Translations under genes and position numbers: made by a program
Shown: in pieces, positions 2,292 through 24,395 of the stretch
Layout of the letters: every line of letters starts with the position of its first letter
How positions within the stretch are numbered: the stretch's first letter is position 1
Source of the DNA: Krasilnikoviella flava
Lineage (GTDB): Bacteria; Actinomycetota; Actinomycetes; Actinomycetales; Cellulomonadaceae
Reading direction: 5' to 3'
DNA length: 64,000 nt
Assembly: GCF_900167525.1 (NCBI RefSeq)
Contig: NZ_FUZQ01000008.1
Location: 186,001-250,000, forward strand
The notes under the pieces: generated by a model
What the model saw: only the letters and a program-made list of their open reading frames with translations
Database searches by the model: none
Told to the model about the DNA's origin: nothing

Positions 2292-2312
2292 GCCGCGATA
2301 CCCCCGTGGACC

Positions 2313-2328: not shown

Positions 2329-2345
2329 GTGACCTTAGGCGTCGC

Positions 2346-2392: not shown

Positions 2393-2412
2393 ACGGGCCG
2401 GAGCGGGCGGGG

Positions 2413-4532: not shown

Positions 4533-4575
4533 ACGTGCTCCTTGGTTCGGTGGGGTGACGGGCGCGGGGTCGGGG

Positions 4576-6449: not shown

Positions 6450-6610
6450 AGCCGCGACTCTAGGAACCGCTCCGTCCGATATGTCCGGGTGGGCGGGGGT
6501 GCCCGCGAAGCGTTCGGGCAACGTTCATCGGCACGGTCCCCGCAGGTCACGGGCACTGCGCGACGGTCACCCGGACGTCGACGGGGCGTCAGGCGGCCGT
6601 CAGGCAGGCG

Positions 6611-7516
6611 TCAGCCGGGCGTCGTCTCGGGGACACCCGCGCGGGGGTAGGCCCGGGTCCTCTCGGAGGTGCCCATCCCCCACCGCACGGCGCGGGTGGC
6701 GAGGGCGCCGGCCGGTACGCCGAGGGTGCGGCGGAACCAGGTGTCGACGTGGAGCTCGTCGCGCGCCCACGTCGGAAGCGTCGACACCGCGCCCGCGGCG
6801 AGCAACGCGTACGGGGGCCGGGCCGCGAGCGGCAGCGGCGGCTCGCGCAGCAGGAACCCCACCGTGTCCAGCGCTGCCTCCGACGCCTCGAGCTCGGGCC
6901 GGTACGCCTCGATCGTCGCGCGCAGCTCGGCCACCGACTCCGGCACGACGACGGCACCCAACGCTCGCGCGACCCGCGCCGCCTGCGCCACGTACTCGTC
7001 CGCCTCGGCGGCGGTGAGCGGCCGCTCGCCGAACCGCTGGTGCGCCGTGAGGAACGAGTCCGCCTCCGCGGCGTGCACCCAGGTCAGCAGGTGCGGGTCG
7101 CCCGCGCGGTAGGGCCGCCCGTCCGGCGCCTTGCCACGCACCCGCTCGTGCACCGACCGGACCCGGTCGATCATCGCCTGCGCGTCGTCGGCGGTGCCGA
7201 ACGTCGTCGTGGCGATGAATGTCGCCGTCCGCTCCAGCCGGCCCCACGGGTCGCCGCGGTAGCCCGAGTGCCCGGCGACGCCCGCCATCGCCAGCGGGTG
7301 CAACGACTGCAGCAGCAGCGCCCGCAGCCCACCCACGAACATCGACGCGTCCGCGTGCACCCGCCCGACCGGGCTGTCGGGCGGGAACCAGCGCGGGCCG
7401 GGCGTCAGGTGGATCCGGTCGCGCACCGCGTGCGCGTCCCGTCCGGCGACCTTCGCGAACAGCATCTCGCCGAGGCGCAGCCGAAGCCGCTCCACCGGGT
7501 TCGTCGCCGTCGTCAT
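6611..7516 (-). CDS. MpaB-like oxygenase family protein (DUF2236)
   Basis: A 301-residue member of the DUF2236 family, which includes the mycophenolic-acid MpaB oxygenase and rubber-degrading latex clearing proteins; members bind haem or a related metal centre. Supporting motifs are the early VGRVHAD, LLLQSLHPLAMAGVAGH and the GTADDAQAMI region, in the usual order. No signal peptide is seen. It begins 16 bases after the stop of the ArgJ-like gene on the same strand, so it may be the last gene of the long ureohydrolase and transporter run. Its substrate is unknown; oxidation of a substrate imported by the locus is possible but unproven. Confidence 0.75.
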   Translation of the reverse strand: MTTATNPVERLRLRLGEMLFAKVAGRDAHAVRDRIHLTPGPRWFPPDSPVGRVHADASMFVGGLRALLLQSLHPLAMAGVAGHSGYRGDPWGRLERTATFIATTTFGTADDAQAMIDRVRSVHERVRGKAPDGRPYRAGDPHLLTWVHAAEADSFLTAHQRFGERPLTAAEADEYVAQAARVARALGAVVVPESVAELRATIEAYRPELEASEAALDTVGFLLREPPLPLAARPPYALLAAGAVSTLPTWARDELHVDTWFRRTLGVPAGALATRAVRWGMGTSERTRAYPRAGVPETTPG

Positions 7517-7532
7517 GCCGCCAGTATCCCGC

Positions 7533-8678
7533 TCAGGTCGTGTAGTCGGCGTTGATCCGGATGTATCCCTCCGTGAGGTCGCACCCGTACACGGTGAACT
7601 CTCCGCCGGCGATGCCGAGGTCCACCTCGATGACCACCTCGTCCCGCCGGAGGTACGTCTCGAGCTCGGCTCGCACCGCGGCGGAGGGCAGCACGGGATA
7701 GGTCTCGATCCCGCCGAAGGCGATCCGGACGTCCTCCTCGTGGACGTCGGTCTCTGTGGCGCACTTGCCGATGGCCATGGCGACGCGCCCCCAGTTCGGG
7801 TCGGCGCCGTGCACGGCCGTCTTGACGAGCGGGGAGTTCACGACCGCCTTCCCGACGAGCTTGGCCTGCGCGTCGTCACGGGCCCCGCTCACGCGGACCT
7901 CGATGACCCTGGACGCGCCCTCCCCGTCAGAGGCGATCATCTTCACGAGGTCGGTGCACAGGTCCCGGAGCACGTCCTCGAACGCCTCGAGGTCGACGGT
8001 GCCGGCCAAGCCCGACGCGACGATCGCCGCGGTATCCGAGGTCGACGTGTCGGTGTCGATGCTCACGGCGTTGTAGGTCCGCTCCACCACCGCCCGGAAG
8101 ATCCGGTCGAGGTCCTCTGCGGGCACGTCGGCGTCCGTGCAGACGAACGACAGCAGGGTCGCCATGTCGGGCTCGATCATGCCGACGCCCTTGGCGATCC
8201 CGACGATCCGCGCCTCCCCGACCTGGCGGACGGCCACCTTGGGCCGGGTGTCCGTCGTCATGATCGCGCGGGCGACGGCGTCGAGGTCCACCCGGTCCGC
8301 CGCCGGGAGGGCCGCCAGCCCGGGCCGCACTCTCGCCATCGGGTACGGCACACCGATGACGCCGGTCGAGGCGACCAGCACCTGCTCCGGCCGGCACCCG
8401 GCCGTCCGGGCCGCCCACTCCTGGAGCTCCCGCGCGTCGGCCAGGCCGCGCTCCCCGGTGGCGACGTTCGCGTTGCCGGACACGACGACGACGGCGCGCA
8501 GCGCCCGGGTCTCGGCCTCCCGGCTCAGGCGCACGCTGGGTCCGGCGAAACGCGACCGCGTGAACACGGCGGCGGAGGTGGTGGCTCCGGTGGCATACAC
8601 GAGGGCGGCGTCCGGGACGCCGTCCTTGACGCCGACGTTCCCGGTGATGCCGTGGAATCCGGCGACGGTGGTGGTCAT
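7533..8678 (-). CDS. ArgJ-type glutamate N-acetyltransferase / ornithine acetyltransferase
   Basis: A 381-residue ArgJ-fold protein of usual length. ArgJ enzymes move an acetyl group from N-acetylornithine to glutamate and self-cleave before a threonine. Here the cleavage motif is KGVGMIEPDMATLL with Thr174 as the expected nucleophile, Thr105-Gly106 (STGVIG) as the oxyanion pair, and the typical C-terminal INADYTT. All catalytic elements are present. It is not beside argC, argB or argD but at the end of an operon with two oligopeptide-type importers and two ureohydrolases, and its start overlaps the ATPase stop (ATGA). This resembles Oat2 of clavulanate clusters. It may acetylate or deacetylate a pathway intermediate rather than serve arginine synthesis. 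Confidence 0.88.
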   Translation of the reverse strand: MTTTVAGFHGITGNVGVKDGVPDAALVYATGATTSAAVFTRSRFAGPSVRLSREAETRALRAVVVVSGNANVATGERGLADARELQEWAARTAGCRPEQVLVASTGVIGVPYPMARVRPGLAALPAADRVDLDAVARAIMTTDTRPKVAVRQVGEARIVGIAKGVGMIEPDMATLLSFVCTDADVPAEDLDRIFRAVVERTYNAVSIDTDTSTSDTAAIVASGLAGTVDLEAFEDVLRDLCTDLVKMIASDGEGASRVIEVRVSGARDDAQAKLVGKAVVNSPLVKTAVHGADPNWGRVAMAIGKCATETDVHEEDVRIAFGGIETYPVLPSAAVRAELETYLRRDEVVIEVDLGIAGGEFTVYGCDLTEGYIRINADYTT

Positions 8679-10228
8679 CGTGTGCTCTTCTCGCGGGTCG
8701 GGGCAGGGTCGGGTCGAACGAGGTCGGGTCCGGGGTGGACCGGAACGAGGACAGCGCCGTCGTCGCCACCCCTCAGTGCCAGGACCCGGTCGCACAGCGA
8801 CAGGATGTCGAGGTCGTGGCTCACGAGGAGCACACCGGTCCCCGCCCGTGCGGCACGGACGACGACGGCGAGCAGGTCGGCGGCGGTGTCGGCGTCCAGC
8901 ATGGACGTCACCTCGTCGAGGACGAGGTACTCCGGTCGCAGCGCAAGGGCCCGTGCGACGCAGGCGCGCTGCAGCTCCCCGCCGGAGACCTGGTGGGGAC
9001 GACGGGAGAGCAGCTCCGGCCCCAGGCCGACGTCGTGCGCCAGCGCAGCCGCGTCGACGGACAGCCCCGCCAGACGCGCCGGCAGCTCGATCGCCTGGCG
9101 CAGGGTCATGCGCGCGTCGACCGCCGTACGGGGATGCTGGGACACCCAGCCCACCCGCCGCCGTTGCGCGGGCGGCAAGTCGAGACCCGCACCGTCGACG
9201 CGTGCTCCCCCCACCGCGACATGACCGGTGTCGGGGACCTCGAGCTGCGCCAGGACCGAGGCGAGGGTCGACTTGCCCACGCCCGACGGCCCGGTGAGCC
9301 CGACGACCTCGCCGGCCCGGACCGCCAGGTCCGTGGGCCCGAGGACGGTGCCGCCGCCCCGCAGCACGCGGACGCCGTGCGCGGCCAACGCCGGGGCGTC
9401 CGCATCGACGGGGGGCGCCGTCCGACGCGCAGGGGCCGAGCGGCCGACGACCTCGACCGCCGTCCCGCGGGCCACGACCCGGCCCGCCTCGAGGCGGGTG
9501 ACGGTACCTCCGCCGCTCCGAGCCAGGGCGAGGTCGTGCGTCACGACCAGCACGCTGTGCCCGGCCCGCGCGTAGGTGGACAGCAGCACCCCGACCGCCT
9601 GCGCTGCGTCCTCGTCGAGCCCCGACGTGGGCTCGTCCACGAGGAGCACGGGCGGGTGGTTGACCATCGCTGCGACGAGGTTCAGCCGCGCGAGCTGGCC
9701 GCCCGAGAGCTGGTGCGGGTACCGCCGCAGCCACGCCGGGTCGACGCCGGCCGTGTGGGCGAGGTCGGCGAGCAGCCGCCCGCCGCCGGACGCGCGGTGC
9801 GGGTGCGCGACCCCGAGCCGTGCCCGGCCGGGCACCGCCACCCCCTGCGCCTCGCGGAGCTGGGCCACGATCGTCGACGTCGGCGTGAACGCGGCGCCGG
9901 CGCCCTGGGGCGCGATCCCGATCAGGCGCCCGCGCACGACCCTGCGGTGGGTGCGGGCGGGCGCGGCGAGCAGGTCGACCTTTCGCCGTCCCACCGTCAG
10001 CACGGCGGTGCCGGTGGCCCTCGACCGGGACGGCAGCGCGCCGTTCAGCGCCGACAGCAGCGTGGACTTGCCCGCCCCCGAGGGGCCGAGCAGCACGTGC
10101 ACCTCGCCGGGGACCAGATCCAGGTCGACGCGGTCAAGGACCGGGGCGTCCCCGTGGGCGACCGACAGGCCCCGCACGGAGACGGAGGCGGAGTCGTGCG
10201 CGATCTCCGGGTGCGGGGCGTCAGTCAT
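8675..10228 (-). CDS. Fused double-ATPase of an oligopeptide-type ABC importer (system B)
   Basis: A 517-residue protein with two complete ABC ATPase halves in one chain, equivalent to DppD plus DppF. Half 1 has Walker A GPSGAGKS, signature LSGGQLAR and Walker B LLVDEPTSGLD. Half 2 has Walker A GPSGVGKS, signature VSGGELQR and LVLDEVTSMLD. It energises the two permeases encoded just upstream and overlaps the second permease gene by 8 bases and the ArgJ-like gene by 4 bases. It lacks the cysteine-containing C-terminal extension found in the other fused ATPase of the locus. The Walker B Pro is replaced by Val in half 2, which may be functionally mild. Confidence 0.9.
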   Translation of the reverse strand: MTDAPHPEIAHDSASVSVRGLSVAHGDAPVLDRVDLDLVPGEVHVLLGPSGAGKSTLLSALNGALPSRSRATGTAVLTVGRRKVDLLAAPARTHRRVVRGRLIGIAPQGAGAAFTPTSTIVAQLREAQGVAVPGRARLGVAHPHRASGGGRLLADLAHTAGVDPAWLRRYPHQLSGGQLARLNLVAAMVNHPPVLLVDEPTSGLDEDAAQAVGVLLSTYARAGHSVLVVTHDLALARSGGGTVTRLEAGRVVARGTAVEVVGRSAPARRTAPPVDADAPALAAHGVRVLRGGGTVLGPTDLAVRAGEVVGLTGPSGVGKSTLASVLAQLEVPDTGHVAVGGARVDGAGLDLPPAQRRRVGWVSQHPRTAVDARMTLRQAIELPARLAGLSVDAAALAHDVGLGPELLSRRPHQVSGGELQRACVARALALRPEYLVLDEVTSMLDADTAADLLAVVVRAARAGTGVLLVSHDLDILSLCDRVLALRGGDDGAVLVPVHPGPDLVRPDPAPTREKSTR

Positions 10229-11069
10229 GGTGCTCCTCTCCGCGGCCTGACAGACAGCCGGAGAGGCAGACGGTGACGGCGACGAGCAGCCCGGCGGGCG
10301 CCGCGAGGGTCCACCACGCCCCGGAGAGCAGCGCCTGCTGGCCGAGGTCGAGCAGCACGCCCAGCGACGGCGCGTGCGGCGGCAGGCCCAGACCCAGGAA
10401 CGTCAGGGTGGACTCGTGCCAGACGGCGTGCGGGACCAGCAGGCCCAGCGCCACGACAAGCTGCGCGGCGAGGCGCGGCGCGGCGTGGTGGCGCAGCAGC
10501 TGGCGCCGGGTGAAGCCGTGGGCGACCGCCGCGCGGTAGTAGTCCGACGTGCCGACCGCCAGGAGCTCGGCGCGCACGAGCCGCGCCGTCTGGGTCCAGT
10601 GCGTGGCGGCGACCACGAGCACGATGGTGAGGAACGACCCGCGCAGCACCGACGCGACCACGATGCCGAGCAGCAGGTGCGGCACGGCGTTGACGCCGTC
10701 CACGACCCGCATGCCCCAGCGGTCCACGCGACCGCCCGCGAGCGCGCATCCGGCGCCAACCAGCGCACCCACGACCACCGCGCTGGTCGCCCCGGCGAGC
10801 GCGGCGAGCAGGGAGATGCGCAGCCCGTGCGCCGAGCGCACGAACAGGTCGCGGCCCGTGAGGTCGGTGCCGAACGGGTGCCCCCACGACGGGCGTGTGG
10901 CGCCCGTGGCGTAGTCGACGCGGTCGATGTCGACGGGCAGCAGCGGGACGACGAGTGCGTAGGCCACCAGCAGCGCCAGCCCCGTCACGGCGACCGCGCG
11001 CCACGGCACCGCCCGTCGGGTCCGCACCGCGCGGAGGGGGCTGACGGTGGGAACGGTGTCAGAGCGCAT
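10221..11069 (-). CDS. ABC transporter permease, DppC/NikC-like (system B)
   Basis: A 282-residue membrane protein of the binding-protein-dependent permease family 2, usual length. It shows the DppC-type N-terminus with one helix, then the GTDLTGRDLFVRSAHGLRIS motif before the permease core and the coupling loop DYYRAAVAHGFTRRQ. The final hydrophobic segment ends in CLSGCLSGRGEEHHD, with two nearby cysteines. The ATG at 11069 lies 11 bases inside the preceding permease gene. It pairs with that permease and the fused ATPase to make an oligopeptide, nickel or related importer. Confidence 0.86.
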   Translation of the reverse strand: MRSDTVPTVSPLRAVRTRRAVPWRAVAVTGLALLVAYALVVPLLPVDIDRVDYATGATRPSWGHPFGTDLTGRDLFVRSAHGLRISLLAALAGATSAVVVGALVGAGCALAGGRVDRWGMRVVDGVNAVPHLLLGIVVASVLRGSFLTIVLVVAATHWTQTARLVRAELLAVGTSDYYRAAVAHGFTRRQLLRHHAAPRLAAQLVVALGLLVPHAVWHESTLTFLGLGLPPHAPSLGVLLDLGQQALLSGAWWTLAAPAGLLVAVTVCLSGCLSGRGEEHHD

Positions 11070-12039
11070 CGGCGTCCGTCCTCGGGTCGATCCGCACGAG
11101 GCAGAGGTCGGCGAGCAGGCCACCGACCACGGCCACCAGCACGAGCAGCACCGTCGACGCGGCGAGCAGCGTGAAGTCCTGGGCGAGCGCCGCGTCGACG
11201 AGCGCGCCGCCCAGCCCCGGCCAGGAGAAGATCTCCTCCACGAGGACCGACCCGGCCACGACCTCGGGGAGCCGCGCCCCCGCGATCGCGAGCGTCGGGA
11301 CGGCCGCCGTCGGCAGCACGTGGCGGAGCATCACCCGCCACTCGGCGACACCGCGCAGACGGGCGGCCTGCGTGGACGGGGTGCGCAGGTGCTCGGCCAT
11401 GCCCCGGTGCAGGTGGAGGGCCATCCACGGCAGCTGCGAGGCCGCGACGGCGAGCACCGGCAGCGCCAGGTGGGTGCCCACCTGCGCGGCCGTGGCCGGG
11501 GCGCCCGGATCGGTCAGCCCGCCGGCCGGGAACCAGCCGAGGCCGAGCGACAGCACCCCGACCAGCACCAACGCGACGAGGAACGCGGGCACGGCGGAGA
11601 GCGCCCATAGACCGCCCGTCAGGAGCCGGGCGAGGGCGCCGTGCGGGCGCAGCGCCGCCAGCATCGCCACCGGGACGGCGACGGCGATCGAGACGGCGAG
11701 CCCCGTGACCATGAGCAGCAGGGTCCAGGGCAGCCGCACCGCCACCACCGTCGCGACGGGCGCCCGGCCGGTCGTGGAGGTGCCGAGGTCGCCGGCGAGC
11801 GCACCCGTGACCCATCGCCACCAGGCGTCGAGCCACGGCGTCCCCGCCACGATCCCCTCCACGCCGCCGCGGGCGGTCCCGCCCGTGAACTCGTCGCGGG
11901 CGCCGAGGAACGCCGACGCCGCGTCGGTCGGCGAGGCCGCGGCGAGCGCGAAGACCGCCAGGCTCACGAGCACGACGAGCGGCACGGCCCACCCCAGCCG
12001 CCGTCCGGTCAGGCGCAGCGCGGCTACCGTCCGGGTCAC
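11059..12039 (-). CDS. ABC transporter permease, DppB/NikB-like (system B)
   Basis: A 326-residue permease with the DppB-type layout: one N-terminal helix, a roughly 60-residue external loop, the WRWVTGALAGDLGTS motif and five further helices. The coupling loop is TQAARLRGVAEWRVMLRHVLP. The GTG at 12039 overlaps the stop of the binding-protein gene (GTGA), so translation is coupled. It forms the channel with the next permease. This second transporter of the locus is less like standard Dpp permeases in its external loop than the first, which suggests a different substrate. Confidence 0.86.
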   Translation of the reverse strand: MTRTVAALRLTGRRLGWAVPLVVLVSLAVFALAAASPTDAASAFLGARDEFTGGTARGGVEGIVAGTPWLDAWWRWVTGALAGDLGTSTTGRAPVATVVAVRLPWTLLLMVTGLAVSIAVAVPVAMLAALRPHGALARLLTGGLWALSAVPAFLVALVLVGVLSLGLGWFPAGGLTDPGAPATAAQVGTHLALPVLAVAASQLPWMALHLHRGMAEHLRTPSTQAARLRGVAEWRVMLRHVLPTAAVPTLAIAGARLPEVVAGSVLVEEIFSWPGLGGALVDAALAQDFTLLAASTVLLVLVAVVGGLLADLCLVRIDPRTDADAL

Positions 12040-13664
12040 CGGCGCGTCCAGTGCTGGACGTCGAACCACGGGCCCCATGCCACGCCGTGCTCGTGCGGCT
12101 CCACGACGTGTCCCACGCCGTCCCACGCGTCGAGGCCGCGGGCCACGTACGTGTGCTCGAGCGCGAAGACGGCGACCATGGGCGGGTTCTCCACGAGGCG
12201 CTCCTGCAGCCTCCGGTACGTCGCCGCGCGGGTCTCGCCGTCCGGCTCCCTGCGTGCCTCGTCCAGCAGGCGGTCCACCTCGTCGTCGGCGTAACCGGAC
12301 GCGTTCGAGTAGGCGTCGTCCTCGTCGAAGTCCGCGTAGTCCGAGTGCAGCTGCCGGTAGACCTGGGCGTCCGGGTCGTACGGCATGTCGCCCCCGCCGA
12401 GCACGAACGCCTTCTCGTCCATCGCGGTGACCGCGTGCGCGCGATCGACCCCCTCCAGGGAGACCTCGATGCCGAGCGCGGCCAGGTCCGAGGCGAACGC
12501 CTGAGCCACGTCACGACGCAGCGTGTCCTCCGCGAAGTACATGACCGTGAACGCGAACGGGATGCCGTCCTTGGCGCGTGTCCCGTCGGGGCCCAGGATC
12601 CACCCCGCCGCGTCGAGCAGCGCCGCGGCCGCGTCGGGGTCGTGCTCGAAGGCCGCCGACGGCTCGTGGTTCGCGCCCTGCGCGGGCGTGAACGGGGACG
12701 AGATCGCTTCCCCGTGGCCGGCGAGGATCCCGTCGACCATCGCCTGCCGGTCGGTGGCGAGATTGAGCGCGGTCCGCACGTCGGGGTCGGCGAAGAACGG
12801 CAGGGTCTGCGGCAGCGAGATCGCGCGAAAGTCCGCGGAGGGGTTGGTCACCAGCTCCAGACCGGCGACGCCGTCGAGCGCCGTCGCGGTCCGCGGGGAG
12901 AGCTGGGCGCCGTCGACGTCGCCGGATCGGACCCGCTGCGCCCGCGCGTTCTCGTCGGCGACGAAGGCCAGGTGGATGGTCGTCACCTCCGGGTCTCCGC
13001 CCCACCAGTCGTCGCGTGCCTCCAGCGTCAGGGACTCGCCGCGGCGCCACTCGGCCAGCACGTACGGGCCGGTGCCCACCGGCTGGTCCGCCAGTGTCGA
13101 GCCCACCACGGTGTCCCCGAGCGCCTCCGAGGCCGGGATGCCCAGCGTGAGCCGCGCCGGCAGGCCCGCGTAGGGGTACGCCAGCTCGAACCGGACGCTG
13201 TGGGCGCTGGTCGCCACGACGTCCTCGACCATCGCGTAGTCCGTGCTCATCCAGGAGCCCTGCCGGGGGTCGCGCACGGCGTCGTACGCCGCGACCACGT
13301 CGTCGGCGTCGAACGCCGAGCCGTCGCTGAACGTGACGCCCTCGCGGAGCGTGACCGTCCAGGTCGTGAGGTCGCCGTCCGGCGTCGGCAGCTCGGTGGC
13401 CAGACCGGGCTCGAGCACCCCGCCCGGGCCCACCGCGACCAGGCCGTCGTACAGCTTGGAGGTGATGCCCAGCGGGTACTCGAGGGGGTTGAGGGAGTCG
13501 TACTCGCCGGTCTCGGCCAGCCGCAGCGTCGACGGGTCGTCGGGCGAGCCGGACCCGGGGTCGTCGAGCGCGCACCCGGTCAGGGCGAGCACCACGACCA
13601 TCGTGGCGGCGGCCGGGCCTCGACGGCGCGGGACGACGGCGCGGGCGGGGACAGCGATGCTCAT
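12036..13664 (-). CDS. ABC transporter substrate-binding lipoprotein, family 5 (system B)
   Basis: A 542-residue SBP_bac_5 protein; the family binds oligopeptides, nickel chelates, opines and related ligands. The signal peptide ends in a lipobox LALTGC, with Cys31 lipidated. Typical blocks include LRLAETGEYDSLNPLEY, VTLREGVTFSDGSAFDADDVV and VGTGPYVLAEW. The ATG overlaps the stop of the upstream permease (ATGA). It has exactly the same length as the other binding protein of the locus but differs in sequence, so the two transporters probably take different ligands. The ligand cannot be named from sequence alone. Confidence 0.9.
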   Translation of the reverse strand: MSIAVPARAVVPRRRGPAAATMVVVLALTGCALDDPGSGSPDDPSTLRLAETGEYDSLNPLEYPLGITSKLYDGLVAVGPGGVLEPGLATELPTPDGDLTTWTVTLREGVTFSDGSAFDADDVVAAYDAVRDPRQGSWMSTDYAMVEDVVATSAHSVRFELAYPYAGLPARLTLGIPASEALGDTVVGSTLADQPVGTGPYVLAEWRRGESLTLEARDDWWGGDPEVTTIHLAFVADENARAQRVRSGDVDGAQLSPRTATALDGVAGLELVTNPSADFRAISLPQTLPFFADPDVRTALNLATDRQAMVDGILAGHGEAISSPFTPAQGANHEPSAAFEHDPDAAAALLDAAGWILGPDGTRAKDGIPFAFTVMYFAEDTLRRDVAQAFASDLAALGIEVSLEGVDRAHAVTAMDEKAFVLGGGDMPYDPDAQVYRQLHSDYADFDEDDAYSNASGYADDEVDRLLDEARREPDGETRAATYRRLQERLVENPPMVAVFALEHTYVARGLDAWDGVGHVVEPHEHGVAWGPWFDVQHWTRR

Positions 13665-14656: not shown

Positions 14657-14661
14657 GGTCA

Positions 14662-15597: not shown

Positions 15598-17618
15598 CAG
15601 ATCTCTCCTCGGCGGAGGCAGGCCACCTCGTGGCGGCGCGCGACGTCGGCGGTCGAGCGGCCGTCGACGGCGGTGAGCTGGATCCCGACGACGGTGCTCG
15701 AGCACTCGGGCACCGCGACGGGGCACCGGGGGTGGAACGCGCAGCCCGTCGGCGGGTCGAGGGCGCTGGCGGGCTCACCCGGCAGCGGCTCGACGATGGT
15801 GCCGGGCCGTGGCACGGCGGCCACCAGATTGCGTGTGTACGGGTGCTGCGGGCGGGCGATGACGTCCTCGGCACGACCCACCTCGACGATGCGGCCGAGG
15901 TACATCACCGCGATCCGGTCGCCGACGATGCGCGCGACCGCGAGGTCGTGGGTCACGAACATGACCGCGATCCCCAGCTCACGGCGCATCTCGTTGATGA
16001 GGTTGAGCACGTTCGCCGCGACGGACACGTCCAGCGCGCTCGTCGGCTCGTCGCAGAGCAGGACCCGGGGCGGCACGATCGTCGCGCGGGCCAGGACGAC
16101 GCGCTGGCGCTGTCCGCCGGACAGCTCGCCGGGGATCGCGTCGAGCACTGCCGGGGGGAGCCCGACGCGGTCGAGGATCGCGCGGGCACGGCTCTCCTTC
16201 TCCGCGCGGTCCGTGCCGCGCGGTAGCCGCTCGTGCAGGACCTCCCGGACCGTCATCCACGGGGTGAGCGAGGAGCCCGCGTCCTGGAACACCATCTGGA
16301 TGTCGGTGCCGCGCGGGCCGCGCACCGACCCGGTGAACCGCTTCTCCAGGTGCCCCGCCACCCGCAGCAACGTCGACTTGCCCGAGCCGGACTCGCCGAC
16401 GACCGCGACCGACTCGCCCGGCTGCAGGTCGAAGGTCACGCCCCGCAGCGCGCCGAGCCGCGCCCTGCGGCCGTGCTCGTCGCGGACCTGGAACGTGCAC
16501 TCGAGCTCCGCCGCCTGGATCAGCGGCGCGCCACGCCCGTGGTCGGGCAGCGGCGGCAGCGGGTCGAGCAGGGTGCGCGAGACACCCCGGTCGCCGACCC
16601 GGCCGGACTCGAAGCACGCGGCACGGTGCTCCGCGTGCCCGTCGCCGGCGGCGACCTCGTCCAGGGTCGGCACCCCCTCCGCGCACGCCTCGACGGCGAA
16701 CCGGCAGCGCGACGCGAACGCGCACCCGCCGCTCGCGGCGCCGGCGGTACCTGCGGCCTCGGCGGGAAGGCTCCACAGCGGCCGCGACCGGTCGGAGTCG
16801 AGCGACAGGCGCGACCCGAGCAGTCCCAGGGTGTAGGGGTGCTGCGGGTGCTCCAGCACCTGCCGCGTGGTCCCCGTCTCCACGATCCGCCCGCGGTACA
16901 TGACGGCGATGCGGTCGGCGACCTGCGCCGCGACGCCCAGGTCGTGGGTGATCATCACGACCGAGCAGCCGATCTCGTCGCGCATGTCCGCGAGCAGCCG
17001 CAGGATCTGCGCCTGGACGGTGACGTCGAGGGCGGTGGTCGGCTCGTCCGCCACGACCAGCTCGGGCCGTCCCGCCAGGGCCATGGCGATCATCACCCGC
17101 TGCCGCAGCCCTCCGGACAGCTCGTGCGGGTAGGAGCGGTACCGACGCTCCGGCTGCGGGATCCCGACCGCCCGCATGAGCCGGACGGCCTCCTGCGGCG
17201 ACCCGGCCTTCTCGGCGACCTGACGGCCCACGAGCATCGTCGGGTTGAGCGAGGTCATCGGGTCCTGGAACACCACGCCCAGCCGGCTGCGCCGGGCCTC
17301 GCGCAGGCGGGCGGGAGGCGCCGTCCGCAGGTCCATCCCGGCCACCTCGAGCGTGCCGTCGATGCGGGGGCGGGAGGACTCCGGCAGCAGCCCGAGCATC
17401 GCCATGCTCATCACGCTCTTGCCGGAGCCCGACTCACCGACGACGCCGACGATCTCGCCGCGCCCGACCTCGAGGTCGACACCGTGCAGGATCGGGGAGC
17501 GGACTCCGTTCCGCTCGAGGCTGACGTCAAGGCCTTGCAGCCGGGCGACGGGATCGGCGGTGCGGACGGGGCCGGGATCCGGCGGCGTCTTGGTCGAGGG
17601 CGGTACGGCGACATCCAT
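15597..17618 (-). CDS. Fused double-ATPase of an oligopeptide-type ABC importer (system A)
   Basis: A 673-residue protein joining DppD-like and DppF-like ATPases. Half 1 carries Walker A GESGSGKS (residues 61-68), signature LSGGLRQRV and [11 protein letters not shown]. Half 2 carries Walker A GESGSGKS, signature LSGGQRQRV and [11 protein letters not shown]. Each half ends with the oligopeptide-transporter C-terminal region with spaced cysteines ([28 protein letters not shown]). Fused ATPases of this kind are common in actinobacterial Dpp/Opp systems. The ATG at 17618 has AAGGAGCC upstream. It overlaps the following permease by one base. Confidence 0.93.
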
Positions 17619-17681
17619 GGGACCGGCTCCTTCGTTCGTGGTGGGGCGGGCAGGACGGGCTGAGGGCAGGCGGCGTGCGGC

Positions 17682-18992
17682 CTATGGGGGCGGTGGGGCC
17701 CCCGCAGGGGCGAGCGGCCGAAGGGCCGCGCGTCGGGCGACGTCGTCGGCGGTGACCTCGGCGACCCGGCGCTGTCGCGACCGGGCGGTCAGCGCGAGCA
17801 TGAGCGCGACGACGAGCGCCAGCCCGGACGCGCCCAGCCACAGCACCCGCGACCCGTACGCGTCGAGCACGAACCCGCCGGCGACCGGCCCGACCGCCGT
17901 CGCCAACGAGTGGGTGAGCCCGTAGACCCCCTGGTAGCGCCCCCGCCGGAGCGGGTCGGCGAGGTCCGCCGTCATCGAGGTCGCCTGGGGGTGCGAGCCC
18001 ATCTCGCCGAGGGTCCAGATCGCGACCGTCACGAGGTACATCGGCAGGGTGGCGGCGACCGACTGCAGTCCGACACCCACCGCCGTGAGCGTGATCGCGA
18101 GGACGATCACCAGGTCGCGGGACCACCGGTTGAACAGGCGCGCGGTCGGGAGCTGCAGCAGGCACAGCAGCACGCCGTTGAGGGTGAGCAGGATCCCGAA
18201 GTCGCTGGACGGGTGCCCCTGCTCGGTCATGACGAGCGGCAGGGTGGTCGTCGACTGCACGTACACGATCGAGTACGCGAACATCACCGCGGCGAAGGTC
18301 ATGAAGACGCGGTCGCGGAGCACCGGGAGCAGGCCTCCTCCGCCCCGGCGCCGGGGGGCTCGCGCGCCGTCGTCGGCGGTGGTCGACGCCTCCTCGGGCG
18401 GGGAGACCCGGGTCTCCGGGACCTTGGCGGCGATCACGCCCACGGACACCAGGACGAGCCCGGCCTGGCACCAGAACAGGAGCGAGAACGACACCTCGGC
18501 CATGAACCCTGCGGCGAGTGGGCCGATGGCGTATCCGAGGTTGACGGCCCAGTAGTTGTAGTTGAACGCGGTGCGCCGGTGCTGCGGCTCGACGAGGTCG
18601 CCGACCATGGTCTGGATGACCGGCCCGCAGGTGCCGTTGAACAGGCCGTACGCGGTGAGCAGGACGGCGATCGGCCCGGCGCCGTCGGCCAGCGGGATGG
18701 CCACGAGCGCGACCACGCTCAGCAGCTCGCCCGCCAGGAGCACCCGGCGGCGCCCGACCCGGTCGGCGAGCACCCCGCCCGCGAGGGAGGAGACGACGAC
18801 CCCGACCCCGTACGCAGCGACCACGACCCCCGCCTCACCGGCGGACATGCCGACCGAGGACGTGAGGAAGATCGTCATGTAGGGGACGACGAACCGCCCG
18901 ATCCACACGACGAGCTGCGCCGTCCACAGCCACCAGAAGGCGGCGGGCAGGTCGCGCAGCCGGGTGCGGCCGGCGGTCGCGGGCGGGGCCAT
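17682..18992 (-). CDS. MFS transporter within the ureohydrolase locus
   Basis: A 436-residue major facilitator protein with twelve predicted helices in two halves joined by a charged loop (about residues 205-235). The A-loop motif GGVLADRVGRRR between helices 2 and 3 fits drug- or metabolite-exporting MFS proteins, and GPVIQTMVGDLVEPQHRR is typical of multidrug-type carriers. It sits between the system A binding-protein gene and the system A ATPase gene with small gaps of 35 and 63 bases. It could export an end product such as urea-derived amine, or the imported compound itself. Direction and substrate are unproven. Confidence 0.85.
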   Translation of the reverse strand: MAPPATAGRTRLRDLPAAFWWLWTAQLVVWIGRFVVPYMTIFLTSSVGMSAGEAGVVVAAYGVGVVVSSLAGGVLADRVGRRRVLLAGELLSVVALVAIPLADGAGPIAVLLTAYGLFNGTCGPVIQTMVGDLVEPQHRRTAFNYNYWAVNLGYAIGPLAAGFMAEVSFSLLFWCQAGLVLVSVGVIAAKVPETRVSPPEEASTTADDGARAPRRRGGGGLLPVLRDRVFMTFAAVMFAYSIVYVQSTTTLPLVMTEQGHPSSDFGILLTLNGVLLCLLQLPTARLFNRWSRDLVIVLAITLTAVGVGLQSVAATLPMYLVTVAIWTLGEMGSHPQATSMTADLADPLRRGRYQGVYGLTHSLATAVGPVAGGFVLDAYGSRVLWLGASGLALVVALMLALTARSRQRRVAEVTADDVARRAALRPLAPAGAPPPP

Positions 18993-19027
18993 TGCGTCTC
19001 TCTCCCTCGTCGGGCGGGGTGCCCGCG

Positions 19028-20656
19028 TCACTCGGCGGTCGCGGACTCGTCGATGCCGAGCGTCGCGAAGTCGAGCGTGGCGGGGGCCGCGATGGAGTGG
19101 GACGACTCGACGCCCTCCAGCCAGCCCTGGGCCACCATGAAGTCGGTGCTCCAGGCGAAGACGGGCGCGCACCCGGCGTCGTAGGCGGCCTCGCCGGCCT
19201 CGACGTAGGTCTCGTCCGACCCGGTCGTAAGGGCCTCGCGGAGCAGCCCGGTGGTTGTCTCGTCGGAGCACTGCAGGTGGTTGAGCCCGCCGTCCGGGTC
19301 CCAGAAGACGTGGCCGTGCATGAACGCGTTGTTGGAGTCGGGCCACGTGGCGGGCGCGATGAGCACGTCCGGCGCGTCCTCGGGGTTCTCGGGGAAGTCG
19401 CCGAACACCTCGGAGGACTGGTGGCTGGTGACCGTCGCGGTCATCCCGAGCGATTGCAGCTGGGCGGCGACGATGTTCGCCATCTGCTCGGCGTCCGACC
19501 CGCCGGCGTTGTAGCCGATCTGGATCTCGATGCCCGGCGCCAGCGACCCGACCCACTCCTCGAGCGCGGCCGGGTCGTGCACGACCTCGCGGGTGTCGAC
19601 CCCGGGGGGCAGGGCACCCTTCGGGTAGTAGCCCTGGGCCACCTCGGAGCTGACGCCCGTGACCTGGTCGACGATCGACGCCCAGTCGATCCCCTCGAAG
19701 AGGGTCCGGCGGGACTCGGCGTCGGCGAGCAGGTCGCGGTTCGGGTTCATGTACATGACGCCCACCTGGAAGGACGGCAGCGCGAACGCCTCCAGTGCCT
19801 CGGAGTCGAGGTACTTCTGACGCGACGCCGTCGGCACCCCGGACAGCAGGGCGTGCAGGTCGCCGCTCTCCAGCTCGAGCTGCATCGCAGAGATCTCGGT
19901 GTAGACGGGCAGCTCCACCGTGGTGAACGTGGGGTCGAGGTTGCCCCAGTAGTCGTCGAAGTAGGTGAGCTCGTACCCCTCCCCCACGACCGCCTTCGAC
20001 AGCACGTAGGGACCGGTGCCCGCCGAGTGGGTCGACAGCCAGGCCTGCGCGAAGTCGTCGCCGCCGTGCTCGGTGAGCGCCGTCGGGCTGATCATCCGCG
20101 GCCCGTACGGAGAGGCCAGGTAGTCGAGGAACGCCGAGTTCGGCTCGGCGAGAGTCACCGTGACGGTGTGGTCGTCCACCTCCTCGACGTCCTCGACGCC
20201 CTGGACCATGTAGGCAGGTCCGGCGTCCACGTCGAGGCGACGCTGGAACGACGCCCCGACCGCCGACGCGTCGAAGGCGGTGCCGTCGTGGAAGGTCACG
20301 CCCTGGCGCAGCGTGAACGTGTACTCCGTGAAGTCGTCGCTGACCTGCCACGACTCCGCGAGGGACGGGACGACGGTCGCCGCCTCGTGGTTGCCCGCCT
20401 CGTAGCGCACCAGCCCTTCGTACGCGTTGGTGGTGATGGCCAGGCCGTTGCCCGAGTAGTAGACGTCGGGGTCCGGCGGCTGGCCGATGTCGTTGAGCAC
20501 CCCGAGCCGCAGCACGCCGTCGGTGGGTGCGGCGGCCGTGGCGGCGCTGTCGCCGAGCTCCCCGTCGGAGCAGCCGGAGAGCAGGAGGGTGCCGACGGCG
20601 AGGAGCGCCAGGGTGCGCCTCGCCATGACGGGCACACGGCGCGTGCGTGAGGTCAT
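19028..20656 (-). CDS. ABC transporter substrate-binding lipoprotein, family 5 (system A)
   Basis: A 542-residue SBP_bac_5 protein. The signal peptide has a lipobox LLLSGC with Cys29 as the lipidated residue. Family blocks include LRLGVLNDIGQPPDPDVYY, FTLRQGVTFHDGTAFDASAVG and AGTGPYVLSKAVVGEGYELT. It is separated by 44 bases from the ureohydrolase gene upstream. It should bring its ligand to the permeases at 13661 and 14662. Because the adjacent enzymes hydrolyse guanidino groups, an arginine-derived or other guanidino compound or short peptide is a reasonable ligand; nickel is an alternative because NikA belongs to the same family. Confidence 0.9.
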   Translation of the reverse strand: MTSRTRRVPVMARRTLALLAVGTLLLSGCSDGELGDSAATAAAPTDGVLRLGVLNDIGQPPDPDVYYSGNGLAITTNAYEGLVRYEAGNHEAATVVPSLAESWQVSDDFTEYTFTLRQGVTFHDGTAFDASAVGASFQRRLDVDAGPAYMVQGVEDVEEVDDHTVTVTLAEPNSAFLDYLASPYGPRMISPTALTEHGGDDFAQAWLSTHSAGTGPYVLSKAVVGEGYELTYFDDYWGNLDPTFTTVELPVYTEISAMQLELESGDLHALLSGVPTASRQKYLDSEALEAFALPSFQVGVMYMNPNRDLLADAESRRTLFEGIDWASIVDQVTGVSSEVAQGYYPKGALPPGVDTREVVHDPAALEEWVGSLAPGIEIQIGYNAGGSDAEQMANIVAAQLQSLGMTATVTSHQSSEVFGDFPENPEDAPDVLIAPATWPDSNNAFMHGHVFWDPDGGLNHLQCSDETTTGLLREALTTGSDETYVEAGEAAYDAGCAPVFAWSTDFMVAQGWLEGVESSHSIAAPATLDFATLGIDESATAE

Positions 20657-20700
20657 GGTGGTCTTCTCTCTGTGCTGGCTCGGCAGGATGTGCGGGCGGT

Positions 20701-21924
20701 TCAGTCGGACGTGCGGAAGACCTGGTTGCGGCGGTTGCCGTCGGCGTCCAGGCCGATCGCGTACGGGTGCAGGTAGTCGGGCTCCGTGATGCCCTTGCGG
20801 TGCATCGCGATGCCGGTCATGGCCTCGCGGACCGCCCGGTTGGCGAGCAGCGCGGTGATCTCGCCGCGGTCGTCGTAGGGCGGGGAGACTTCGACGACGT
20901 CCATCGCGACGATCCCGACCTCGGCGGCGAGGCGTCGCACGGCCCGGAGGATGTCGTTCGAGGTGATGCCGCCGGGCTCCGGGGTACCAGTGCCGGGGGC
21001 GTAGGCCGGGTCGCAGACGTCGATGTCGAGTGAGATGTACAGGTGGTCGGCCTGGTCCAGCGCCTCGTCGACGGCCCGCTCGAGGACCTTGTCGAAGCCC
21101 TCCCGGACGATCTCGGCCATGAAGTGGGTGCGCATGCGCTGGTCGTCCATCCAGTCGAGCGTCTGCTGGTCGGGCCAGTAGCCGCGCAGACCCACCTGGA
21201 CGAAGTTCTTGCCCGGCACGGCGCCGGAGTCGATGAGGTGTCGCATGGGAGTGCCGTGCGAGGCCAGCGACCCCGGCATGTCGGAACCCGTGTCGGCGTG
21301 GGCGTCGAAGTGGACGATGCCGACCTTGCCGTGGCCGTAGTGGTCGGCGACCGCCGTCGCGGACGGCCACGTGATCGCGTGGTCCCCACCCAGGACGATC
21401 GGGACGGCCCCGGCGTCGACCACGGTGCCGATGAACTTGCGCACCTCCTCGAACGTCTTCGCGGTGTTGCCGACGAAGACCGGCGCGTCGCCGTAGTCGG
21501 CCATCACCAGCTCCTCGAACGCGTCGACGTGGGTGTCGAGCGAGAAGTGCGGGCGCCCGTAGCCGCCCTTGTAGTCGCAGGCCCGGATCGCGAGCGGGCC
21601 GTGGTTGGTGCCGGTGCGGCCGGTCGCGGTGGAGTCCCACGGGACGCCCAGCACCGCGACGTCGACGCCCGCCGCGCGGAGGTCGTCAGGGGTGAGCGCG
21701 ACAGGCAGCTTGCCGAAGGTCTGGATGCCGGCGAACCCGCCCTCGGCCTTGCGGTTCGCGAACAGCAGCCCCGGCGGGCGGCCTTCGTTGTAGTCGTCGG
21801 TAGCCCCGTGTCCCTCCAGCCCCTGGCCGAGCCGGCGGGGCTGCTCCCAGAACCCGTCGGGCCACAGATCGTGGTGGTGGTCGTGCTGGTCGTCGTGCTG
21901 GTCGTGGCTGTGGTCGTGCGACAT
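20701..21924 (-). CDS. Arginase/agmatinase-family ureohydrolase, paralogue 2
   Basis: A 407-residue ureohydrolase. All six binuclear metal ligands are visible: His182 (GGDHAIT), Asp207, His209 and Asp211 (FDAHAD), Asp300 and Asp302 (SLDIDVCDP). These enzymes split guanidino compounds into urea and an amine using manganese or, in some guanidinases, nickel. The first 20 residues are extremely rich in His and Asp (MSHDHSHDQHDDQHDHHHDL), a likely metal-binding tail; the chain is about 90 residues longer than typical agmatinases at the N-terminus. It is a tandem paralogue of the next gene, with many identical blocks. Substrate is unresolved: agmatine, guanidinobutyrate, guanidine, arginine or a clavam-like guanidine are all possible. 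Confidence 0.9.
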   Translation of the reverse strand: MSHDHSHDQHDDQHDHHHDLWPDGFWEQPRRLGQGLEGHGATDDYNEGRPPGLLFANRKAEGGFAGIQTFGKLPVALTPDDLRAAGVDVAVLGVPWDSTATGRTGTNHGPLAIRACDYKGGYGRPHFSLDTHVDAFEELVMADYGDAPVFVGNTAKTFEEVRKFIGTVVDAGAVPIVLGGDHAITWPSATAVADHYGHGKVGIVHFDAHADTGSDMPGSLASHGTPMRHLIDSGAVPGKNFVQVGLRGYWPDQQTLDWMDDQRMRTHFMAEIVREGFDKVLERAVDEALDQADHLYISLDIDVCDPAYAPGTGTPEPGGITSNDILRAVRRLAAEVGIVAMDVVEVSPPYDDRGEITALLANRAVREAMTGIAMHRKGITEPDYLHPYAIGLDADGNRRNQVFRTSD

Positions 21925-21971
21925 GTGTGTCCTCGGGGTCGTCGGGTGGGACGTCGGTGGTGCCGGGTGAG

Positions 21972-23207
21972 TCAGGCCGGGGCGTCCCGGAACACCTGCG
22001 TGCGGCGGCCGCCGGCAGCGGCGAGGTTGAGCGCGTGCGGGTCGGCGTAGTCCGGGCCGACGAGCCCCAGACGACGCATCGCCGTCCCGGTCAGGGCCTC
22101 CCCGATCGCCCGGTTCGCGAGCAGCACCGTGATCTCGCCGTCGTTGTCGTAGGGCGGGGAGACCTCGACGACGTCCATCCCGACGATCCCGACCTCGGCC
22201 GAGAGCCGTCGCACGGCCCGCAGGACGTCGATGGAGGTGATGCCGCCCGAGACCGGGGTACCGGTACCGGGGGCGAAGGCTGGGTCGCAGACGTCGATGT
22301 CGAGCGAGATGTACAGGTGGTCGGCCTGGTCCAGCGCCTCGTCGACCGCCCGCTCGAGGACCTTGTCGAAACCGTCGCGGTCGATCTCCGCCATGAAGTG
22401 CGTCCGCATCTGGCGCTCGTCCATCCAGTCGAGCGTCTCCTGGTCGGGCCAGTAGCCGCGCAGGCCCACCTGGACGAAGTTCTTGCCTGGCACCGCGCCC
22501 GAGTCGATGAGCTTGCGCATGGGAGTGCCGTGCGAGGCCAGTGCCCCGTTCATGTCGGCGCCGACGTCGGCATGGGCGTCGAAGTGGACGATGCCGACGT
22601 TGCCGTGGCCGTAGTGGTCGGCGACCGCCGTCGCGCACGGCCACGTGATCGCGTGGTCGCCGCCCATGACGATGGGGATCGCGCCCGACGTGACGACGGT
22701 CCCCACGAACTTGCGGACCGACTCGAAGGTCGCCGCCGTGTTGCCGACGTGGATCGGCGAGTCGCCGTAGTCGCACATCGTGAGCACCTCGAACGGGTCG
22801 ACCCGCACGTCCAGGTGCTTGCTGGGGAACCCGTAGCCGGCGAAAGCCGGGACCTGGCGCAGCGCGAGCGGGCCGTGGTTCGTGCCGGACCGGCCGCCGG
22901 CCGTGGAGTCCCACGGCACGCCCAGCACCGCGACGTCGACGCCCGCGGCCACCAGGTCGTCCGGGGTGAGCGCCATCGGGAGCCGGGCGAAGGTCCGGAT
23001 GCCCGAGTGCCCGCCGCCGCGCCGCCGGTTGACGTGCAGCAGCCCGGGCGGGCGGCCCTCGTTGTAGTCGTCGGTAGCCCCGTGTCCCTCGAGCCCTTCG
23101 CCCAGCCGACGCGGCTGCTCCCAGAAGCCTTCCGGCCACCGGTCGTGGTCGTGGTGGGCGTGCCCGCCCGCATCGTGGTGTCCGTGGTCGTCGTGCTCGG
23201 AGGTCAT
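21972..23207 (-). CDS. Arginase/agmatinase-family ureohydrolase, paralogue 1
   Basis: A 411-residue ureohydrolase with His185, Asp210, His212, Asp214, Asp303 and Asp305 as metal ligands. Its N-terminus is again His-rich (MTSEHDDHGHHDAGGHAHHD) before the shared FWEQPRRL and GHGATDDYNEGRPPGLL blocks. It is the first structural gene after the LacI regulator and follows a 138-base intergenic region with two LacI-type operators. The two paralogues differ mainly in the loop after GTNHGPLA (QVPAFAGYGFPSKHLDV against CDYKGGYGRPHFSLDT), which in this fold is close to the active-site mouth. They may therefore act on different guanidines or form a hetero-oligomer. Confidence 0.9.
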   Translation of the reverse strand: MTSEHDDHGHHDAGGHAHHDHDRWPEGFWEQPRRLGEGLEGHGATDDYNEGRPPGLLHVNRRRGGGHSGIRTFARLPMALTPDDLVAAGVDVAVLGVPWDSTAGGRSGTNHGPLALRQVPAFAGYGFPSKHLDVRVDPFEVLTMCDYGDSPIHVGNTAATFESVRKFVGTVVTSGAIPIVMGGDHAITWPCATAVADHYGHGNVGIVHFDAHADVGADMNGALASHGTPMRKLIDSGAVPGKNFVQVGLRGYWPDQETLDWMDERQMRTHFMAEIDRDGFDKVLERAVDEALDQADHLYISLDIDVCDPAFAPGTGTPVSGGITSIDVLRAVRRLSAEVGIVGMDVVEVSPPYDNDGEITVLLANRAIGEALTGTAMRRLGLVGPDYADPHALNLAAAGGRRTQVFRDAPA

Positions 23208-23230
23208 GGCGGTGACCGTAGGACGCTGCC

Positions 23231-23244
23231 AAATCGTTTATCCA
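23231..23244. promoter_or_regulatory. LacI-type operator, proximal to ureohydrolase start
   Basis: CAAATCGTTTATCC contains AATCGTTT, a near-palindromic LacI operator core of the AAnCGnTT type. It is about 24 bases upstream of the ureohydrolase start and overlaps GGATAAACG on the minus strand, a possible -10 region. A matching inverted copy lies at 23332, about 100 bases away. Confidence 0.45.
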
Positions 23245-23331
23245 GGGGTGCAGGCCACTCGAAACGCACCTTTAACCCCGGTCGTTCAACCTTCGGGACC
23301 TGACACTCGTTCGCACCGTGCGCGAAACAGT

Positions 23332-23344
23332 GGTGAAACGATTA
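23332..23344. promoter_or_regulatory. LacI-type operator, distal copy
   Basis: GGTGAAACGATTA carries AAACGATT, the reverse complement of the core at 23233. It lies directly beside the stop codon of the LacI gene. Two operators about 100 bases apart around a promoter fit repression by looping by the adjacent LacI protein. Confidence 0.45.
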
Positions 23345-23345
23345 G

Positions 23346-24395
23346 TCAGCCACGGCGGGCCAGAAGGTCCCCCGCCGTCGAGGCCCGCAGGTGGACCGGC
23401 GCGGGGACGGTCCTGACCGTCCGAGCCGCGATCACCGGGTCCTCGTCACCCTCGACGAGGGCGACCAGCCGCTCGACGCAGGCGACACCGAGCGCGTGGG
23501 CCGGCAGCTCCACCGCCGTCACGGGCGGGTCCTCGGCCGCGAGCGCCGTCTCGTCGGCGCAGGCGGCGACCAGCACGTCGCTGCCGGGCACGCGGCCCGC
23601 CGCGCGCAGGGCCTCCATCGCGCCGCGGACGACGAAGGACGACGCGCCCAGCACGAGGTCCACGTCGGGGTGGGCGGCCAGCACAGGCTCCAGCAGCGTC
23701 CGGTGGCGTGCCACGGAGCGATCGCCGAACGTCGTCCCGACCAGCACCGGCGTGGTGCCCTGCTCCGCGCACCACCGCGCGACGATGTCGCGCAGCAAGA
23801 TCCCCCACCCGCTGTGCGCGTCAGGGGCGGCGAGCAGCGGCCGGCGGGCGCCGTGCGCGGCGGCGGCGTCGAGGACGGCGCGCACCGCCGTCTCGTGGTC
23901 GGCCGCGACCACCGCGCACTGCGACATCTGGGGCGGCACGTGCTCGCCAGCGACCACGGGGACCGGCATCTCCATCAGCTCACGGGCGCGCAGGTCGTCG
24001 CCGATCGGGTCGACCACCACGACGCCGTCGACCCGCGGCGTCGTCGCGCGAGGCTGGGACGCGTCCGACGAGAGGACGACCACGTCGAGGTCGTGCCGGT
24101 GAGCCGTCTCGATGGCCCCCGCAAGGAAGTCCCGGAAGTACGGGGTCGCCAGCGCCGCCGCCGAGCTCTGGTGGTGGATGCCGATCGCCTGCGCGCGCCC
24201 CGTGCGCAACCCTCGGGCCAGCGAGTTCGCCACGTAGCCCAGCTCGTCCGCGGTCTCCTGGACCCGGGCCCTCGTCGTGTCGGTCATCCGGCCGCGGCCG
24301 GCCAGCGCATGCGACGCCGTCGCGACGGACACACCTGCGGCCGCGGCGACCTGCTTGAGCGTGACCGGCCCCGTGGCACGCCGCCTGCTCGTCAT
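23346..24395 (-). CDS. LacI-family transcriptional regulator of the ureohydrolase locus
   Basis: A 349-residue regulator with the LacI helix-turn-helix at the N-terminus (VTLKQVAAAAGVSVATASHAL, residues about 11-31) and hinge NSLARGLRTG, followed by a periplasmic-binding-protein-like effector domain. It is the most upstream gene of the minus-strand run and is followed by two operator-like sites before the first ureohydrolase gene. It therefore probably represses the locus until a locus substrate or derived metabolite binds. LacI regulators usually sense sugars or nucleosides, so its presence with ureohydrolases is unusual. Confidence 0.9.
   Translation of the reverse strand: MTSRRRATGPVTLKQVAAAAGVSVATASHALAGRGRMTDTTRARVQETADELGYVANSLARGLRTGRAQAIGIHHQSSAAALATPYFRDFLAGAIETAHRHDLDVVVLSSDASQPRATTPRVDGVVVVDPIGDDLRARELMEMPVPVVAGEHVPPQMSQCAVVAADHETAVRAVLDAAAAHGARRPLLAAPDAHSGWGILLRDIVARWCAEQGTTPVLVGTTFGDRSVARHRTLLEPVLAAHPDVDLVLGASSFVVRGAMEALRAAGRVPGSDVLVAACADETALAAEDPPVTAVELPAHALGVACVERLVALVEGDEDPVIAARTVRTVPAPVHLRASTAGDLLARRG

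Follow-up and report, generated by a model that had tools for sequence, protein, structure and literature searches.

We analysed a stretch of 64,000 nucleotides from Krasilnikoviella flava (contig NZ_FUZQ01000008.1, positions 186,001 to 250,000 of the forward strand), referred to here as the window, whose source genome amounts to 4.85 Mb in 10 contigs. The subject of this study is a run of 13 minus-strand genes, established by translation and family searches, that spans 7533-24395 and leads from a LacI-family regulator to an ArgJ-family ornithine acetyltransferase. Between these two lie the ureohydrolase genes UreA and UreB, two sets of ATP-binding cassette (ABC) importer genes with family 5 solute-binding proteins (SBP), and a carrier of the major facilitator superfamily (MFS). 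In the direction of transcription the features are:

23346-24395, minus strand: LacI-family regulator (PF00356 and PF13377)
23208-23345, minus strand: intergenic gap between LacI and UreA, with putative operators (two AAACGATT elements)
21972-23207, minus strand: UreA, ureohydrolase and paralogue of UreB (PF00491; His-rich N-terminus; changed pocket motifs TAGGR and GTPVSGG)
20701-21924, minus strand: UreB, ureohydrolase (PF00491; His-rich N-terminus)
19028-20656, minus strand: SBP1, family 5 solute-binding lipoprotein of importer 1 (PF00496)
17682-18992, minus strand: MFS carrier, perhaps a product exporter, the direction being predicted (PF07690)
15597-17618, minus strand: ABC1, fused ATPase of importer 1 (NCBIfam NF008453 and TIGR02770)
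14662-15597, minus strand: permC1, permease C of importer 1 (best NCBIfam model a nickel permease, below cut-off)
13661-14656, minus strand: permB1, permease B of importer 1 (best NCBIfam model a nickel permease, below cut-off)
12036-13664, minus strand: SBP2, family 5 binding protein of importer 2 (PF00496; orthologous importers run into urease genes)
11059-12036, minus strand: permB2, permease B of importer 2 (PF00528; best NCBIfam model a nickel permease, below cut-off)
10221-11069, minus strand: permC2, permease C of importer 2 (PF00528; best NCBIfam model an oligopeptide permease, below cut-off)
8675-10228, minus strand: ABC2, fused ATPase of importer 2 (best NCBIfam model nikE, below cut-off)
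7533-8678, minus strand: ArgJ, ornithine acetyltransferase of the OAT2 type (PF01960; above both NCBIfam ArgJ cut-offs)
6611-7516, minus strand: MpaB (PF09995)

With the chosen start codons, the 138 bases between LacI and UreA are the widest spacing within the run, and the next ones measure 47 (UreA-UreB), 44 (UreB-SBP1), 35 (SBP1-MFS) and 63 bases (MFS-ABC1). From ABC1 to ArgJ six of the seven junctions overlap (ABC1-permC1 by 1 base, permB1-SBP2 by 4, SBP2-permB2 by 1, permB2-permC2 by 11, permC2-ABC2 by 8 and ABC2-ArgJ by 4), the remaining one being a 5-base gap between permC1 and permB1. A first-pass annotation of this DNA had named the same genes, with their strand, positions and tiny or overlapping junctions, and the translations and family searches bear it out. 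It had also counted in MpaB, 16 bases beyond ArgJ; we reject this gene as a member because 0.8-10 kb past ArgJ in eight relatives (G662, G787, G831, G809, G777, G730, G773 and G705) hold no match to it.

Two samples were used to follow the locus beyond the window. A scan with UreB of one genome per species across 84,980 species, able to detect close relatives only, yielded 15 loci, around which flanks of up to 10 kb were examined; a family survey covered 221 genomes of the window's family (ureohydrolase at E <= 1e-60, ArgJ at E <= 1e-110). The samples overlap, L073 being G777, L074 G705, L075 G787, L081 G389, L084 G381, L085 G451 and L086 G338. In the family survey the ureohydrolase is present in 9 of 221 genomes, and an OAT2-type ArgJ in exactly those nine and in none of the other 212 (Fisher p = 3e-16; the co-occurrence counts and Fisher p values given here ignore relatedness). 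Since the same nine genomes alone hold both, the 13-gene run is one system, as the first-pass annotation had supposed, and its gene order recurs in other Actinobacteria. ArgJ closes the run in eight of the nine; the ninth, G705, has the run divided between two contigs, the second of which carries ArgJ behind ABC2.

The 15 loci belong to Cellulomonas, Cellulosimicrobium, Streptomyces, a Propionibacteriaceae bin, Quadrisphaera, Kineosporia, Streptosporangiaceae bins, another actinobacterial bin and Nesterenkonia. SBP1 adjoins the ureohydrolase in 13 of them, and 12 hold the ureohydrolase together with SBP1, ABC1, permC1 and permB1; a LacI homologue is found in 8, the MFS gene in 7 and the UreA-UreB pair in 3. 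These counts define importer 1 plus one ureohydrolase as the conserved core. Two loci (L074, L079) end at contig edges, and that of Quadrisphaera (L081) is a ureohydrolase alone. Importer 2 and ArgJ, within the flanks examined, were seen among these loci in the window's family only. A comparison of neighbourhoods, which the first-pass annotation had proposed as a check, does not refute the core, whose genes stay together. In 50 more distant ureohydrolase loci (flanks of about 1.5 kb or less) we found one weak ABC match and no other locus gene. The locus is rare but conserved and patchily distributed; among 17 other genomes listed from the window's genus, G809 has it. Spread by plasmids was rejected, the six plasmid records found all being below 60% identity and none covering 80% of the query.

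Several relatives show local variations. In the Streptosporangiaceae bin L083 an isochorismatase-fold hydrolase lies between the ureohydrolase and SBP1 (L083:11078-11821), its PDB matches including an N-carbamoylsarcosine amidase-related protein and biuret hydrolase, and what looks by eye like a metallo-beta-lactamase-fold hydrolase follows SBP1 (L083:13441-14361). The gap between ureohydrolase and SBP1 in L082 and L084-L086 is of a size that fits such an insertion. In Nesterenkonia pannonica (L087:7516-17944) several locus genes match in pieces, with an extra MFS copy, in a region that is either decayed or badly sequenced.

UreA and UreB are 77% identical and both qualify for the arginase superfamily (PF00491, two His and four Asp ligands). 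The metal ligands, as named for MefH, are H181, D206, H208, D210, D299 and D301 in the numbering of alignment A1 (add one for the UreB protein), and none of them varies among the 19 sequences aligned. The idea that UreA is a dead subunit like MefH beta was rejected, all six ligands being kept. In 8 of 8 genomes with the pair, UreA carries TAGGR and GTPV(S/A)GG and UreB carries TATGR and GTPEPGG; the one copy of Nesterenkonia likewise reads TAGGR, and that of Streptomyces TASGR. The N-terminal stretch holds 5-15 His in every row listed from the Cellulomonas-Streptomyces-Quadrisphaera group, 0-3 in three Kineosporia and Streptosporangiaceae rows, and 0-2 in eight of nine distant homologues, the ninth (L005) having 5. 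Speculatively, these His-rich tails may hold or load metal.

The phylogeny places the two enzymes beside guanidinases. The tree comprised 69 rows (matches shorter than 750 bases dropped, PDB chains as aligned parts only, midpoint root, metformin hydrolase not included); it left out the very long row L003 and included the agmatinase 7lol, an earlier tree having had L003 and no agmatinase. UreA and UreB fall within a 61-row group (98/97), all sampled inside the phylum, next to a separate branch of GdmH, 9fek and L063 (100/100), on which the earlier tree agrees with weaker support (92/83). A Pah-like identity is not supported, both enzymes lying outside the Pah branch in both trees. UreA forms a branch with support of 100/97, and together with UreB and the single-copy forms of Streptomyces, G831, Propionibacteriaceae and Nesterenkonia it belongs to a set of 19 rows (98/92). 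The tree gives no firm order within this set; in the earlier tree UreA stood outside the remaining rows (91/83).

Some ureohydrolases depart from this pattern. The UreA of Cellulosimicrobium composti (G787, L075; L116:1828-2979) has GGNH in place of GGDH, with the His ligand kept. G831 has no UreA copy; a divergent ureohydrolase, 37% identical to UreA and with 3-guanidinopropionase as best PDB match, lies there between permB1 and SBP2 (L117:7268-8116, minus strand). The Propionibacteriaceae bin has two UreB-like copies flanking SBP1 (L080:10001-14008), a duplication distinct from that of UreA and UreB (100/99). A third arginase-family gene in the window's genome (G000:C2:309781-310629) is very distant from both.

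The ArgJ of the locus is 59% identical to OAT2 of the Streptomyces clavuligerus clavulanate cluster, which is its closest relative among solved structures, and 36% identical to the genome's own ArgJ encoded elsewhere. Its co-occurrence with the ureohydrolase makes an accidental neighbour unlikely and lends support to the acetyl step that the first-pass annotation had put forward. The usual ArgJ reaction is that of N-acetylornithine with glutamate, N-acetylornithine being the acetyl donor; it would fit an N-acylarginine substrate, because the ureohydrolase product would then be N-acylornithine. Clavulanate clusters contain the gene set pah, oat2 and oppA. N-acetylarginine is described in PMC6097109 as mimicking, towards CAS, the clavam intermediate DGPC, a guanidino relative of which is acted on by Pah. 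What is shared with clavulanate may thus be the chemistry rather than the gene family. A wider scan (296 genomes) found the OAT2-type gene in 9 other genomes, and five of these neighbourhoods (L119-L123) hold no other locus genes in the stretches examined; the OAT2-type ArgJ is consequently not tied to the locus outside the window's family.

Importer 2 is linked to urease. A urease set (gamma, fused beta-alpha, F, G and D) lies between ABC2 and ArgJ in G809, G777, G730 and G773. In G791 (83% complete) importer 2 leads into the urease set with no ArgJ behind it, permB2 and urease F being in broken frames, and neither a ureohydrolase nor an ArgJ match was found in that genome at the thresholds used. 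In G831 the urease set sits just beyond the divergent LacI gene, and in the window's genome urease lies outside the locus, on contig C8. Of the 10 genomes with an SBP2 of at least 71% identity, five have urease directly behind, G831 has it beyond LacI and four have it elsewhere; SBP2 paralogues of 56-58% identity lie about 5-15 kb from urease in G777, G730 and G769 (57% and 15 kb in the last). Urease alpha itself is present in 9 of 9 ureohydrolase genomes as against 55 of 212 others, one of the 55 being below cut-off (Fisher p = 9e-6). Because the urease set adjoins importer 2 in four of the nine genomes, and G791 has importer 2 and urease only, this gene linkage indicates that importer 2 probably carries nickel. 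The first-pass annotation had assigned both importers to the organic substrate; for the second, which tracks urease, we depart from it.

Peptides, opines or metals are the usual ligands of family 5 binding proteins, and the NCBIfam models leave the cargo of the two importers undistinguished. ABC1 is above cut-off both for the dipeptide ATPase model NF008453, with the higher score, and for the nikD model TIGR02770. SBP2 and ABC2 score best with nickel models, below cut-off, and permC2 with an oligopeptide model; among PDB chains SBP2 is closest to an unnamed family 5 protein. For the MFS carrier the best NCBIfam models, among the 25 of 48 rows shown, are efflux families, again below cut-off.

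Regulation by the adjoining LacI gene is suggested by a short element. AAACGATT is found at 23232-23239 and, on the opposite strand, at 23336-23343, and nowhere else in the 64 kb window. Counting both strands, 9 of 13 LacI-UreA-type gaps from the window and its relatives contain it, as compared with a mean of 0.016 and a maximum of 1 in shuffles, and the remaining four gaps carry the related ATCGATT. The element is probably the LacI operator. A LacI homologue stands next to the ureohydrolase in all nine family genomes that have the enzyme, divergently oriented in G831 and in the Streptomyces loci.

Taken together, gene content, gene order, conservation, co-occurrence and retained metal ligands are the observations on which an interpretation can be built. 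We give an even chance to the reading that the locus is an inducible nitrogen-scavenging operon, combining guanidino import, urea release, urease feeding and nickel supply. Its catalytic and transport steps, its metal and its substrate are all predicted from the genes. Importer 1 (SBP1-ABC1-permC1-permB1) would take up a guanidino compound, which UreA and UreB would hydrolyse to urea and an amine, the likely chemistry already suggested by the first-pass annotation. Urease, which four relatives encode within the operon and the window's genome on C8, would convert the urea to ammonia, with importer 2 supplying nickel to urease and possibly also to the ureohydrolases. The OAT2-type ArgJ would serve for acetyl transfer between glutamate and the amine thus released, the MFS carrier would export a product, and LacI would repress the operon until an inducer is present. 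The first-pass annotation had also argued for use of the compound rather than clavam synthesis, which is supported; no clavam-building family is among the genes scanned.

As to the substrate, an N-acylated arginine such as N-acetylarginine is our best single guess, a tentative one, prompted by N-acetylornithine being the usual acetyl donor of ArgJ. More speculative, and on balance unlikely, is a self-contained pathway for N-acylarginine or an arginine-derived natural product. It would comprise a new ureohydrolase subfamily with paired intact sites, self-loading His-rich tails in place of HypA/HypB, an N-acylornithine product, acyl transfer to glutamate by the OAT2-type enzyme, an operon urease and one nickel importer for both metalloenzymes.

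A number of results weigh against the nitrogen-scavenging operon. The window's genome, G662, G787 and G705 carry their urease elsewhere instead of within the run from ABC2 to ArgJ. Beyond the ten genomes above, seven have a more distant SBP2 match; G769 aside, these (43-45%) lack a urease nearby, three of the six having none in the genome, and every part of importer 2 falls below the curated nickel cut-offs of NCBIfam. HypA, the partner of guanidinase-type enzymes, was found in 0 of 21 genomes (7 of 14 in the control set; HypB was not searched), and HypA-assisted nickel loading is accordingly rejected; manganese is a possible metal for the ureohydrolases. No guanidine or nickel (NiCo) riboswitch was found by Rfam in the window or in the loci of three relatives (L111, L112 and L117), and control by either is likewise rejected. 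The flanks of loci outside the window's family lack ArgJ. Two further points, the nickel-like features of importer 1 and the agmatinase scores of the ureohydrolases, count in favour of rival explanations and are weighed with them.

The rival that survives best, though we consider it unlikely, makes importer 1 the nickel importer of a nickel ureohydrolase, importer 2 serving urease or another cargo and the organic substrate entering through the MFS carrier or by another route. ABC1 passes the nikD cut-off, permC1 and permB1 score best with nickel models (below cut-off), and the best PDB match of SBP1 is a nickel-binding protein. However, ABC1 scores higher with the dipeptide model, whose cut-off it also passes, and the best models of the MFS carrier are efflux types. 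Moreover, the MFS gene is absent from 5 of 12 importer 1 loci (L082-L086), which would leave the substrate there without an importer.

Detoxification of an arginine analogue such as canavanine, with release of urea and a toxic amine, acetylation by ArgJ and export by the MFS carrier, seems quite improbable. The ArgJ reaction can run both ways and might take ornithine analogues, and an efflux-like MFS is present in 7 of 15 loci, but dedicated import of a poison would be odd, the usual cargoes of family 5 binding proteins do not favour it, and the urease linkage points to nitrogen use.

Agmatine, which agmatinases turn into urea and putrescine, with the MFS carrier exporting the putrescine, is an equally improbable substrate. 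UreA and UreB reach 190 and 188 bits with the agmatinase equivalog model TIGR01230 (cut-off 174), yet they miss the cut-off of 302 of the agmatinase subfamily model NF002564. PDB agmatinases rank below guanidinase, GbuA and GpuA, and 7lol, a single agmatinase row on a long branch, groups with Pah, GbuA and GpuA (100/97), apart from UreA and UreB. Agmatine would also leave ArgJ unexplained.

We hold out just as little hope for guanidine or small substituted guanidines, with ArgJ in a side role. Guanidinase is the best PDB match of both enzymes, GdmH (7ESR) and the N. inopinata guanidinase (9FEK) forming the nearest, sister branch under the midpoint root; all the same, the branches are separate (100/100 as against 98/97). 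Of the residues T97 and W305 (Synechocystis numbering), named for guanidinase in PMC11410670, our own mapping by alignment gives T and T in UreB, G and T in UreA, so that UreB keeps T97 only and UreA neither. The tandem genes with nickel and urea genes do recall the Aminobacter metformin locus: according to PMC11399263, the MefH/DmgH loci of Aminobacter and Pseudomonas have two adjacent ureohydrolase genes with nickel uptake and urea genes nearby. Metformin hydrolase there has one subunit that has lost metal ligands, 33% identity between alpha and beta, and HypA/HypB genes adjacent. Here, in contrast, both paralogues keep their ligands and share 77%, neither subunit is degenerate, HypA and a guanidine riboswitch are missing from the sets searched, and binding-protein importers and ArgJ are added to the operon.

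Scavenging or processing of a clavam-like natural product, which the OAT2 type of ArgJ might suggest, is very improbable, as the ureohydrolases lie outside the Pah branch, no chain named as clavulanate OppA is among the best 60 PDB rows shown for SBP1 or SBP2, and the Streptomyces loci are the core without ArgJ in the flanks examined. The clavam parallel drawn in the first-pass annotation thus holds for ArgJ, and for the same kinds of gene standing together, but not for the ureohydrolases.

Returning to the nitrogen-scavenging operon, the guanidinase and metformin hydrolase loci are nearest to it in logic, as described in PMC11410670 and PMC11399263, sharing nickel, a ureohydrolase and urea use. 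It also resembles urease operons with a family 5 importer, importer 2 standing directly before urease genes in G791, G809, G777, G730 and G773; in contrast to them, importer 2 and urease form one run with the ureohydrolase pathway in the last four, and the window's run has no urease set. If correct, this reading would describe a guanidino pathway with its own metal supply and a urea-using enzyme in one operon. A ureohydrolase branch so far uncharacterised, and named agmatinase by automatic models, gains a testable role, and a reason is suggested for the company that the OAT2-type ArgJ keeps with ureohydrolases. In the open-access literature, to which our search extended (subscription papers lay outside it), no description of the locus appears in the titles or abstract openings of the matches listed.

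Two observations concern the rest of the window. A SAM-IV riboswitch at 28423-28539 on the minus strand (61 bits) is the only Rfam riboswitch found. At 228-6521, also on the minus strand, a glycosidase, a glycerophosphodiester phosphodiesterase-like gene and a sugar ABC importer can be recognised by eye, apparently unrelated to the locus.

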